From contig JALSGQ010000111.1 in NCBI GenBank assembly GCA_026982665.1, positions 1 to 48,873 on the forward strand: a stretch of DNA of 48,873 nucleotides. Direction: 5' to 3'. The DNA comes from Hyphomicrobiales bacterium (lineage in GTDB: Bacteria; Pseudomonadota; Alphaproteobacteria; Rhizobiales; Aestuariivirgaceae). How positions within the stretch are numbered: position 1 is the first letter of the stretch; each line of letters starts with the position of its first letter. Below the pieces are notes generated by a model that was not told the origin of the DNA, did not search any database, and saw nothing but the letters and a program-made list of their open reading frames with translations. This document shows positions 1,846-6,808 of the stretch, piece after piece. The translations under genes and the position numbers were made by a program.

Positions 1846-2916
1846 ATGCAGCCACGCATTCCGGCCACGGTCATCACCGGCTTTCTCGGTGCCGGCAAGA
1901 CCACCATCATCCGCCACCTGCTGCAGCAGGCACAAGGCCGGCGCATAGCGCTGATCGTCAACGAGTTCGGCGATGTCGGCATCGACGGCGCGTTGCTGAA
2001 GGGCTGCAACGACGAGGCCTGCCGCCCCGGCGACATCGTCGAGCTGGCCAACGGCTGCATCTGCTGCACCGTGGCCGATGACTTCATCCCCACCATGACG
2101 GCGCTGCTGGAACGCCCCGAGCGGCCTGATCACATCATCATCGAAACCTCCGGGCTGGCGCTGCCGCAGCCGCTCATCCGCGCTTTCAACTGGCCGCAGG
2201 TGAAGGCGGGCGTAACCGTTGACGGCGTGGTGGCGGTGGTGGATGGCCCGGCGGTGCTGGCTGGTCAGTTCGCTGCCGACCCGCGCAAGGTGGAGATATT
2301 GCGCAAGGCCGACGTGAACCTCGACCACGAAAGCCCGCTGCACGAGCTGTTCGAGGACCAGCTGCGCGCCGCCGATCTCGTCATTCTGCACAAGGCCGAC
2401 CTGCTGTCTGTGGCGCAGGTGGAGGAGCTGACAACCCGCCTGCAGCGCGAGGTGCGGGACGGGGTGCGGATCATCCCCGCAAGCCGCGGCGAAATTGCGC
2501 CGCAGGTGCTGCTGGGGCTGGGCGCGGCAGCGGAAGATGACATCGACAACCGCCCCACCCATCACGAGCTGGCCGGCGAAGCCGACCATGACCATGACGA
2601 ATTCGTCAGTTTCGCTGCAGATCTGCCAGCGTTGCCCTCGCGCGAGGCATTGCAGGCAGCGGTGGAGGAAACGCTGCGCAGCCACCCGGTGCTGCGGCTG
2701 AAGGGGTTTGCGGCATTGCGCGGCAAGCCGGCGCGGCTGGCGGTGCAGGCGGTGGGGCCGCGGCTGGAAATGTGGTTCGACCGTCCCTGGCGGGCGGATG
2801 AAGAACCGCACACGCAGCTGGTGGTCATCGGCCTGAAGGGCATGGACGAACAGGCAGTGCGCGCACAACTGCGCGCCGCGCTGGATGCCGCCCATACCAC
2901 CGCGGCAGAAGGCTGA
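1846..2916 (+). CDS. cobW: Cobalamin biosynthesis GTPase CobW
   Basis: CobW is a G3E-family P-loop GTPase of the COG0523 group, proposed to deliver cobalt to the CobN-containing chelatase. The Walker A motif is GFLGAGKTT near residues 12-20, the metal-binding CICC motif is at 71-74, the guanine-recognition HKAD motif follows, and the C-terminal CobW domain comes after a His/Asp-rich stretch (HDHDE) that could hold metal. The 356-residue length is typical. The start was chosen at the ATG preceded by AGGAG; an upstream in-frame ATG at 1810 lacks this. COG0523 members also include zinc chaperones, but the immediately downstream cobN, seven bases away, argues for the cobalt role. Confidence 0.93.
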   Translation: MQPRIPATVITGFLGAGKTTIIRHLLQQAQGRRIALIVNEFGDVGIDGALLKGCNDEACRPGDIVELANGCICCTVADDFIPTMTALLERPERPDHIIIETSGLALPQPLIRAFNWPQVKAGVTVDGVVAVVDGPAVLAGQFAADPRKVEILRKADVNLDHESPLHELFEDQLRAADLVILHKADLLSVAQVEELTTRLQREVRDGVRIIPASRGEIAPQVLLGLGAAAEDDIDNRPTHHELAGEADHDHDEFVSFAADLPALPSREALQAAVEETLRSHPVLRLKGFAALRGKPARLAVQAVGPRLEMWFDRPWRADEEPHTQLVVIGLKGMDEQAVRAQLRAALDAAHTTAAEG

Positions 2917-2923
2917 GCCACCC

Positions 2924-5900
2924 ATGCACCTGCTGGCCGCCACATCGGCAAACATCGGCGAAGGCGACGAGGCCATCGACCTCGGCCAGGCACCGGCAGA
3001 CGTGCTCATCCTCTCTGCCGCCGATTCCGAGCTGGCGGCCCTTTCCGGCGCGTTTGCCGCCCTGCCGGAGAAGCCCTTCTCGCTGCGGCTCGCCTCCATC
3101 AACATGCTGCGCCACCCCATGTCCGTGGACATGTGGGTGGAAAACACCGCGCGGCATGCGCGGCTCATCATCGCGCGGGTGCTGGGCGGGCATGCCTACT
3201 GGGCCTACGGCGTGGAGGAGCTGCAGCGCATTGCCGATGAACACGGCATCAAGCTGGCGCTGCTGCCCGGTGGCGAGGTGGTTGACGAGGATCTCGTGCG
3301 CCGCTCCACCCTGCCGCCGGAGGTGTGCGAGGCCCTGCGCGCGCTGTTCGCCGCCGGTGGCGCGGAGAATGCCCGGCGCATCCTGCAGGCCTGCGCGGCG
3401 CTGCTGGGCACGCACACCCCGCATGCCGCCGCCATCCCCGCCCCCGTGCCCCTGCCGCAATGCGGTGCCTGGCTGGAGGGTGAGGTGGTTGCCGGCGTGG
3501 AAGAGGCCCTGAAACGCGCTTCTCGCCTTGCCCCTGTCATCTTCTATCGCGCATGGCTTCAGGGCGGCTTCACCGCACCGGTGGCGGCGCTGGCACAGGC
3601 GCTGCGAAATGAAGGACTGACGCCGCTGCCGCTGTTCGTCCCGTCGCTGAAGAACCCCCGTGCGCGGGCCTTCCTGAACGAGCTGTTCGCGCAGCAGCCA
3701 CCGGCCGTCATCATCGACCTCACCGCCTTTTCCGCCGCTGATGACGACCCGCTGCAACAGCCCGGTTGCCCGGTGCTGCAAGGGTTTCTGGTCAACGCCG
3801 CCGAGCAGGCCTGGCGCGACAATCCGCAAGGGCTGGGCCCGCGTGATCTCGCCATGCTGGTGGCGCTGCCGGAGCTTGACGGGCGCATCATCACCCGCGC
3901 TGCCGCCTTCAAGGAAGACACGCGCCTTGACGAAGCCACGCAATGCCGCCTGCTGACATATGCACCGCATGCGCCGGGCATTGCCCACATCGCCGCACTG
4001 GCGGCGCGCCACGCACGGCTGCGCCTCATCCCCAATGCCGAAAAGCGCATTGCCCTGGTGCTGGCCAACTATCCCGCCAGCGATGGCCGGCTGGCCAACG
4101 GCGTGGGGCTGGACACGCCGGCCTCCACCGTCGCCATCCTGCGCGCCCTGCAAGACGCGGGCTACCGGCTCGACTACCTGCCGGAAAATGGCGATGCCCT
4201 CATCCGCCTGCTGCAAACCGCCCCCACCAACGCCAGCGGCACGGCGAATCGGCAGTCGGACGCCCTCCTGCCACTCGCTGCTTACGAGCAGCATTTCAAT
4301 GCCTTGCCGGAGCAGATTCGCAAGCAGGTGGAACAACGCTGGGGCCAGCCGCAGGATGATCCCTTCTTCCGCGACGGCAGCTTCCACCTGCCGGTGAAGC
4401 GGCTGGGCGAAGGCGTCATCTGCGCCATTCAGCCGGCGCGCGGATACAACATCGACCCGAAATCCACCTATCACGACCCCGCCCTGCCACCGCCGCACGG
4501 GTATCTGGCCTTCTACATCTGGCTGCGACAGGTGTTCGGCGCGCATGCCGTGGTGCACGTGGGCAAGCACGGCAACCTGGAGTGGCTGCCGGGCAAGGCG
4601 CTGGCGTTGTCCGATGCCTGCTTCCCTGCCGCCGTCTTCGGCCCGCTGCCGCATTTCTATCCCTTCATTGTCAACGACCCCGGCGAGGGCGCGCAGGCCA
4701 AGCGCCGCACCCATGCGGTGATCATCGACCACCTGATGCCACCGCTGGCCCGCGCCGAAACCTATGGCCCGCTGGCCGGGCTGGAGCGGCTGGTGGATGA
4801 ATACTGGCAGGCCAGCGCCACCGATGCACCGCGCGCCGAATACCTGAAGGAGCGCATCATCGAGCAGGCGGAGATCAGCGGCATCGCCGCGGATGCCGGC
4901 CTGAAGCAGGAGCTGCGGGCCGATCCGGAAGGCGCGCTGGCAGCACTCGATGCCTGGCTGTGCGACCTGAAGGAGGCGCAGATCCGCCACGGCCTGCACG
5001 TGCTGGGCCACCTGCCGGGGCAGACGCTGGACAATGCCACCGCAACGGACACGCTGGCCGAGACCCTGGTGGCGCTGGTGCGCCTGCCGCGTGGTGATGG
5101 CAAGGGTCCGAATGCCTCGCTCATCGGCGCGCTGGCCGATGACCTGCTTCCCGGCTTTGCCCCCTTCGATGCCGACATGACGGCACCGTGGAACGGCCCG
5201 CGCCCGCCACTGCTCGAGACGCTGAGCACTGCCCCGTGGCGCACCGCCGCCGATGCCCGCGAGCGGCTGGAGCTGCTGGCGCTCAAGCTGGCGCGGCAGG
5301 TGGTGGAACAGCATTTCTCCGAAGGCTTCTCTTTCCCGTCATTGCAGGGCTTGACCCGGCAATCCGGGGTTTCGGACTTAAGCCTCCGCGGCTTTCAGGA
5401 TGCCCGCATCAAGCCCGGGCATGACGAAAAGGAAGACGACATCACCAGGGCAGCCCCCGGCCCGGCCTCGGCCTTGGTGTTGGGGCAGATGGCGGAGGAG
5501 CTGCTGCCGAAGCTGCTGCAATCGGCGCATGACGAGATCGCCCACCTGCTGGCCGGGCTGGCCGGAAACGCCGTGCCACCCGGCCCTTCCGGCGCGCCAT
5601 CGCGCGGCCGGCCGGACGTGCTGCCAACGGGGCGCAACTTCTTCTCCCTCGACTCGCGCAGCCTGCCCACCCCGGCGGCGTGGGACCTGGGCCGCCGCTC
5701 GGCGGAGAACATGCTGCAACGCCACTTCATGGAGCATGGCGAATACCCGCGGGCCATCGGCCTTTCCTGCTGGGGCACGGCCAACATGCGCACCGGCGGT
5801 GATGACATCGCCCAGGCGCTGGCGCTGATCGGCGCCCGGCCCGCGTGGGATCATGCCTCCGGCCGCGTTACCGGCTTCGAGATCATCACGCTGGCCGAGC

Positions 5901-6808
5901 TGGGCCGCCCGCGGGTGGACGTAACCTTGCGCGTCTCCGGTTTCTTCCGCGATGCCTTCCCGCAGCAGATGGAGCTGTTCGACCGCGCGGTGCGTGCCAT
6001 CGGTGCACTTGAAGAACCGGAAGAGGACAACCCCATTGCCGCACACATGGCGGAAGAGCGCCAACGGCTGCTGGCGCAGGGGCTGGACGAGAAGCAGGCG
6101 GCACACATGGCCGGCTGGCGCATCTTCGGTGCCGAGCCGGGAGCCTATGGTGCCGGCCTGCAGGCTCTTGTCGACTCCGGCGCATGGGAGCAGAAGGCAG
6201 ACCTGGCCGAGAGCTGGATCAACTGGGGTGCCTATGCCTACGGTGCCACCGACCAGGGCACCCGCGCCGAACAGGCCCTGCGCCAGCGCCTGCGCAAGCT
6301 GGATGCCATTGCCCACAACCAGGACAACCGCGAGCACGACCTGCTGGACTCGGATGACTACTACCAGTTCGAGGGCGGCTTCGCCGCGGCGGTGGAGCAC
6401 GTGAAGGGCAAGGCCGTGCCGGTGTGGCACAATGATCACTCACGGCCCGAACAGCCCGTTACCCGCTCGCTGGAAGAGGAAATCGCGCGGGTGGTGCGCG
6501 CGCGGGTGGTGAACCCGAAGTGGATTTCCGCCATCATGCGGCACGGCTACAAGGGCGGCTTTGAAATGGCGGCGACGGTGGATTACATGTTCGCCTTCGC
6601 CGCCACCACCGGCGCGGTGCGCGATCATCACTTCGAGCTGGCGTTCGATGCCTTCATCCGCGACGATGAAGTGCGCCAGTGGCTTGCGGAGCACAATGCA
6701 CAGGCGCTGGAAGACATGCGCCAGCGCTTTCGCGAGGCACTGGCCCGCGGCCTGTGGCAACCCCGCGCCAACGACGTGGCAATCCTGCTGGAGGAGGAGA
6801 CGACATGA
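2924..6808 (+). CDS. cobN: Aerobic cobaltochelatase subunit CobN
   Basis: CobN is the large, corrin-binding subunit of the ATP-dependent cobaltochelatase that inserts Co2+ into hydrogenobyrinate a,c-diamide; it works with CobS and CobT, which are not in this window. The 1294-residue product shows CobN/BchH-family landmarks, including HVGKHGNLEWLPGKA, the VLPTGRNFFSLD block, and GGDDIAQALALIG with downstream conserved segments to the end. The start is the ATG seven bases after the cobW stop. Residues about 805-834 are encoded by a 90-bp palindromic repeat that inserts in frame in a variable linker before the conserved GPSGAPSRGRPDVLPTG block, leaving the reading frame open. The stop overlaps the cobO start (ATGA), implying coupled translation. 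Confidence 0.97.
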   Translation: MHLLAATSANIGEGDEAIDLGQAPADVLILSAADSELAALSGAFAALPEKPFSLRLASINMLRHPMSVDMWVENTARHARLIIARVLGGHAYWAYGVEELQRIADEHGIKLALLPGGEVVDEDLVRRSTLPPEVCEALRALFAAGGAENARRILQACAALLGTHTPHAAAIPAPVPLPQCGAWLEGEVVAGVEEALKRASRLAPVIFYRAWLQGGFTAPVAALAQALRNEGLTPLPLFVPSLKNPRARAFLNELFAQQPPAVIIDLTAFSAADDDPLQQPGCPVLQGFLVNAAEQAWRDNPQGLGPRDLAMLVALPELDGRIITRAAAFKEDTRLDEATQCRLLTYAPHAPGIAHIAALAARHARLRLIPNAEKRIALVLANYPASDGRLANGVGLDTPASTVAILRALQDAGYRLDYLPENGDALIRLLQTAPTNASGTANRQSDALLPLAAYEQHFNALPEQIRKQVEQRWGQPQDDPFFRDGSFHLPVKRLGEGVICAIQPARGYNIDPKSTYHDPALPPPHGYLAFYIWLRQVFGAHAVVHVGKHGNLEWLPGKALALSDACFPAAVFGPLPHFYPFIVNDPGEGAQAKRRTHAVIIDHLMPPLARAETYGPLAGLERLVDEYWQASATDAPRAEYLKERIIEQAEISGIAADAGLKQELRADPEGALAALDAWLCDLKEAQIRHGLHVLGHLPGQTLDNATATDTLAETLVALVRLPRGDGKGPNASLIGALADDLLPGFAPFDADMTAPWNGPRPPLLETLSTAPWRTAADARERLELLALKLARQVVEQHFSEGFSFPSLQGLTRQSGVSDLSLRGFQDARIKPGHDEKEDDITRAAPGPASALVLGQMAEELLPKLLQSAHDEIAHLLAGLAGNAVPPGPSGAPSRGRPDVLPTGRNFFSLDSRSLPTPAAWDLGRRSAENMLQRHFMEHGEYPRAIGLSCWGTANMRTGGDDIAQALALIGARPAWDHASGRVTGFEIITLAELGRPRVDVTLRVSGFFRDAFPQQMELFDRAVRAIGALEEPEEDNPIAAHMAEERQRLLAQGLDEKQAAHMAGWRIFGAEPGAYGAGLQALVDSGAWEQKADLAESWINWGAYAYGATDQGTRAEQALRQRLRKLDAIAHNQDNREHDLLDSDDYYQFEGGFAAAVEHVKGKAVPVWHNDHSRPEQPVTRSLEEEIARVVRARVVNPKWISAIMRHGYKGGFEMAATVDYMFAFAATTGAVRDHHFELAFDAFIRDDEVRQWLAEHNAQALEDMRQRFREALARGLWQPRANDVAILLEEETT
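5337..5426. repeat. 90-bp palindromic dispersed element inserted in frame in cobN
   Basis: The left arm starting CGTCATTGCAGGGCTTGAC at 5337 matches the reverse complement of the right arm ending AAGCCCGGGCATGACG at 5426, forming an imperfect inverted repeat with arms of about 28 bases and a 34-base centre. Other frames read as VIAGLDPAI and, on the other strand, VMPGLDAGI; these peptides are hallmarks of a palindromic repeat common in alphaproteobacterial intergenic regions. Here it lies inside a gene, is exactly 30 codons long and carries no stop in the cobN frame. It resembles in behaviour the Rickettsia palindromic elements found inside proteins. I see only this copy in the window. Confidence 0.8.

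Follow-up and report, generated by a model that had tools for sequence, protein, structure and literature searches.

A CGTC-type REP dimer read in frame in cobN, within a linker repeatedly hit by unrelated repeats

The cobN gene of a bacterium of the Aestuariivirgaceae carries an in-frame palindrome made up of two REP units with CGTC tags, arranged head to head. It lies in a CobN linker that is a hotspot, hit repeatedly by unrelated repeats in many Aestuariivirgaceae and in Pseudomonas. We assign a probability of roughly three in four to the following reading: a REP dimer was inserted in an ancestor and survived in a tolerant linker, where unrelated families have accumulated recurrently. Intragenic REPs as such are already known, but the CobN-linker hotspot appears to be unreported in the open-access literature that we searched. 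The stretch of DNA analysed (the window) comprises 48,873 nt and belongs to the genome designated G000 here.

Within the window, cobN, which encodes the large subunit of cobaltochelatase, occupies positions 2885..6808 on the plus strand. Its product is a full-length CobN (TIGR02257, 1507.7 bits against a cut-off of 822; PF02514, 1218.9 bits), with homology beginning at residue 14 (base 2924), in agreement with the original prediction of an otherwise intact enzyme. The element falls in an interdomain linker between two long helices (5321..5461, plus strand; aa 813-859), as seen in an AlphaFold fragment model and by comparison with PDB 9uk9. In this model, built from 23 sequences, the flanking helices span aa 788-812 and 860-892, the pLDDT is below 50 at aa 818-852, and the insert peptide at these residues is predicted to be disordered. 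The linker region comprises 60 residues in this CobN versus 14 in 9uk9; it is variable, as had been proposed, and short or empty in relatives.

The 90-bp palindrome (5337-5426) is imperfect, with 22 of 29 positions complementary between the arms 5337-5365 and 5398-5426. Including extended arms, the whole head-to-head dimer covers 5330..5433 (no strand assigned); these arms are 36 nt long, 72% complementary and separated by a 32-nt spacer. The RNA fold of the palindrome reached -42.2 kcal/mol compared to a mean of -30.7 for shuffled sequences (z -3.48), and none of 200 shuffles folded as well. The left unit (5337..5366, plus strand) reads CGTC ATTGCAGGG CTTGA CCCGGCAAT CCG with 8 of 9 stem positions paired, the inverted right unit (5397..5426, minus strand) CGTC ATGCCCGGG CTTGA TGCGGGCAT CCT with 7 of 9. 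Both open with the CGTC tag, which is outermost in the inverted pair, followed by a 9-nt stem starting with AT, the 5-nt loop and the tail. In the cobN frame the element encodes SLQGLTRQS...DARIKPGHD, free of stops, and its +1 frame contains VIAGLDPAI. Both the in-frame palindrome and the VIAGLDPAI reading had been predicted correctly. The element had further been described as exactly 30 stop-free codons; the absence of stops holds, but the first of the 90 bases is a second codon position, so that the element does not match 30 whole codons.

CGTC REPs are built from an unpaired CGTC tag, a stem of 8-9 bp beginning with AT, a loop of 4-5 nt and a CCA-like tail (PMC3733652). They occur mostly as head-to-head dimers, mainly in Alphaproteobacteria, and show no linkage to a transposase (Di Nocera et al. 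2013, PMC3733652). With CGTC families 3 and 4 of that study, the element shares the tag, the 9-bp stem with its AT start, the 5-nt loop, the CC tail and the head-to-head arrangement, as well as the alphaproteobacterial host, the largely intergenic location, the lack of a linked transposase and the occasional intragenic copy; unlike theirs, its copy number is low (about six in G000). The parallel with in-gene elements of Rickettsia drawn in the original prediction is borne out by this plan, since the CGTC superfamily includes RPE-6 and RPE-4 of Rickettsia conorii as CGTC-1 and CGTC-4, respectively (PMC3733652). Those elements, too, are CGTC REPs in frame within protein-coding genes, in another organism and in other host genes, and the documented likeness is one of CGTC class. 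The main text of PMC3733652 does not contain cobN; its supplementary list of intragenic REPs might include it. Membership among the GTAG REPs or REPtrons is ruled out by the CGTC tag together with the lack of a RAYT gene: none of the 11 genus genomes searched gave a match to the RAYT profile (PF01797), and RAYT was dropped as a local mobiliser on the same ground.

Further copies of the element are present in G000 on contigs C60, C72 and C54, with two partial ones on C37 (best E 2.3e-10). These copies, about 74% identical, are old. The inverted arrangement with CGTC outermost is found in all three of the cobN, C60 and C72 copies. Allowing up to 2 mismatches, the arm pattern matched 8 times in G000, where about 5 matches look real, and 23 times in the related genome G007, while the reversed pattern used as a control had no match in either. 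The repeat forms a small, dispersed REP family, with about six copies in G000 and more in G007. In G000 it is multi-copy and mostly intergenic, as had been supposed, with about five copies besides the one in cobN. The copy on C60 (L002:1501-1590; G000:C60:9294-9383) lies in frame inside cobK, another B12 gene, and is read in the same phase as the cobN copy; 294 residues of this insert-bearing CobK align to 233 model positions of PF02571. By codon usage, the remaining G000 copies look intergenic or ambiguous. A match in rpoA on contig C89 was judged to be ordinary RpoA sequence.

It had been suggested that mobility of the element is constrained by frame. Only one of the six orientation/phase combinations of the cobN element is stop-free, and this is the one used in cobN; on the sense strand, other phases are blocked by stops in the CTTGA loop, in the spacer and in the terminal ATGACG. 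All four in-gene copies found of the VIAGLDPAI family share one phase. Where a copy lies within a gene, its right arm almost always encodes a hydrophilic peptide (DxRxRGxD or DxRxKPGHD); genome G062, with WILAFARMT, is an exception. Such a pattern of frame and peptide would be expected if random insertions had passed through selection. Since only one placement in six is open, selection against stops seems to explain survival in frame better than frame-aware mobility does, and we replaced frame-aware insertion by stop-codon filtering. Frame-constrained mobility is further weakened by the low identity of the copies and the absence of RAYT from the genus genomes.

Four other members of the genus (G003, G002, G005 and G001) have a short linker with no insert, and these empty relatives hold no counterpart of the element's residues. 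Neither of the two outcomes named beforehand as refuting the original prediction, such residues in relatives or a genome free of further copies, turned up. The nearest insert-free relative has a linker 40 codons shorter than that in the window, a net difference of about 120 bp, which is not the clean 90-base insertion that the original prediction proposed to look for. In the nearest empty relative, G003, the 3' flank is 81% identical and too diverged to resolve the insertion boundaries or a target duplication. The unclean boundaries count against the survivorship reading, and so does the lack of a mobilising transposase in the genus genomes.

Other linkers hold other repeats. In G007, the CobN linker contains the same family as in G000. 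G008 and G004 share a pair of CGTC REPs that belongs to a different family (VIPAQAGIQ...DPRFRGDD), with 25 matches in the genome of G008 and 31 in that of G004; these and all other genome copy numbers are match counts from mostly metagenome-assembled genomes, and palindromes can match both strands. The linkers of G009, G018, G022/G030 and G019 contain other repeats. In G076, G073 and G075, from a larger genus of the family, the linker contains an SFPRRRES-type pair, which in G076 is perfect over 31 nt and has 40 matches genome-wide. Yet another repeat, also perfect over 31 nt, is present in G062. The linker is also occupied in three Pseudomonas genomes, by REP pairs of their own that have at least 80 genome-wide matches each. 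The different repeats are in frame in G008/G004, G009, G018, G019, G022/G030, G062, G076/G073 and the three Pseudomonas genomes. We take the Pseudomonas pairs to be putative GTAG-type, RAYT-associated REPs; although in the same linker, they differ in sequence and superfamily and are unrelated to the cobN element. The GTAG class as such is also treated in PMC3733652. The family is that of Taklimakanibacter (Aestuariivirgaceae, Hyphomicrobiales), one family genome having a CobN linker identical to that of T. lacteus. The long linker of L152 (Paraburkholderia) contains no inverted repeat. In the linker of G004 (L028:1110-1632), a further palindrome, unrelated to the first, is accompanied by three copies of the REP end GGGGATGACGA, as if repeats accreted and duplicated there. 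On the CobN tree, G008 and G003 (L020 and L030) are sisters; the insert of G008 is common to the more distant G004, and G003 lacks it. From these sequences, loss or gene conversion seems likely.

Inverted repeats were counted in 130 distinct CobN genes. Those with a score of at least 16 numbered 16 in 31.4 kb of linker versus 2 in 250 kb of adjoining cobN sequence; at a score of at least 20, the numbers were 12 and 0. The degraded element of G000 scores only 11.5, below both thresholds, and these counts therefore describe its younger relatives. On a CobN tree of 65 fragments from which the linker was excluded, insert presence, assigned by us from linker comparisons, requires 12 changes, of which at least 10 are forced by supported branches, with bootstraps that had not fully settled. 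Several REP families thus reuse one CobN linker, whereas PMC3733652 contains a single same-site case, Xanthomonas recB. So far, in-frame REPs have been regarded as isolated oddities, of which those in Rickettsia are the most familiar. With many lineages and several repeat families at a single site, the CobN linker forms a comparative record in which one can ask directly whether small palindromic repeats add peptide to proteins through targeting or because some copies survive by chance, and whether entire domains can be gained in the same way.

According to the survivorship reading, a head-to-head CGTC-type REP dimer would have entered cobN in an ancestor, delivered by recombination or by a transposase that acted earlier or in another place, a process no longer visible in the genus. 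REPs would disperse over the genome, with nearly all coding insertions being lost. Survival would need a stop-free orientation and phase, a maintained frame, and a solvent-exposed, disordered linker in the host protein. The CobN linker (aa 813-859) would be tolerant in this way, so that unrelated REP families would have gathered there repeatedly, and survivorship would account for the hotspot. The inserted REPs may now encode a harmless, mostly hydrophilic linker peptide.

The main rival to tolerance and survivorship is site targeting: the CobN linker would be a preferred landing site, where a resident REP hairpin attracts more REPs or undergoes recombination with copies elsewhere in the genome. 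We regard this as doubtful, but several observations speak for it. Repeats are stacked or multiple in the linkers of G009, G004, G019 and G018; in G019, a DUF559 domain lies between two palindromes of about 100 bp that are 84% identical; both in-gene copies found in G000 are in B12 genes; and CGTC-type and Pseudomonas-type repeats occupy the same CobN site. Moreover, CobN seems to hold more than its share of the in-gene copies even if tolerant linkers are allowed for, which leaves room for targeting, although the queries of this survey were derived from cobN and favour cobN matches. Against targeting, most relatives have no insert, and in-frame REPs occur in two other CobN linkers, a pair in G003 at aa about 210 and a pair of the VIAGLDPAI family in G069 near aa 452, which fits tolerance. 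Elsewhere, 5-oxoprolinase/hydantoinase contains in-frame REP pairs at two different positions in G003 and G004 (L205:1506-1608 and L214:1455-1552). About 46 copies of the VIPAQAGIQ family were sampled in G003, G004 and G008; five of them lie in frame within genes, and the clear cases are restricted to cobN and 5-oxoprolinase.

A functional hairpin, whose mRNA structure would slow translation between the two halves of CobN or whose peptide would tune the CobN-CobST complex, might be expected from a stable predicted fold at a domain boundary that has been acquired repeatedly. Yet close relatives do without the insert, sequences and lengths vary freely, the cobN copy, with 22 of 29 pairs, is degraded, and its peptide is predicted to be disordered, making such a role very improbable. 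A chance palindrome or ordinary linker sequence of non-mobile origin, for which the imperfect arms would speak, has next to no probability: it is refuted by the further copies of the family in G000 (E to 2.3e-10), besides a z of -3.5, the REP plan on both arms and empty relatives without a counterpart.

The DUF559 domain in the CobN linker of G019 is complete and in frame (L031:3855-4430; G019:C422:7634-8197), and no other DUF559 was found in this genome. DUF559 is a Vsr-like PD-(D/E)XK domain (PMC12907096); among the open-access papers searched, none of those that mention DUF559 has it in title or abstract. One could imagine that the CobN linker is a true REP landing site across Alpha- and Gammaproteobacteria and that REP-flanked DUF559 genes are mobile via palindromes, a combination that we consider unlikely. 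If it were true, the repeat-DUF559-repeat cassette of G019 would be a domain addition to an enzyme caught in the act, and REP-flanked DUF559 nuclease units would use, and perhaps spread, such palindromes. The repeats flanking DUF559 that could be read out are not CGTC REPs, and a long frame at L307, considered as a DUF559-PheT fusion, is merely open upstream. At DUF559 genes of Hyphomicrobiales (L231-L246, L281-L310), related direct or inverted repeats lie immediately on both sides at 26 of 39 loci, compared to 4 of 104 control pairs of flanks chosen at a greater distance. These sequences suggest that DUF559 genes may be repeat-flanked mobile nuclease units.
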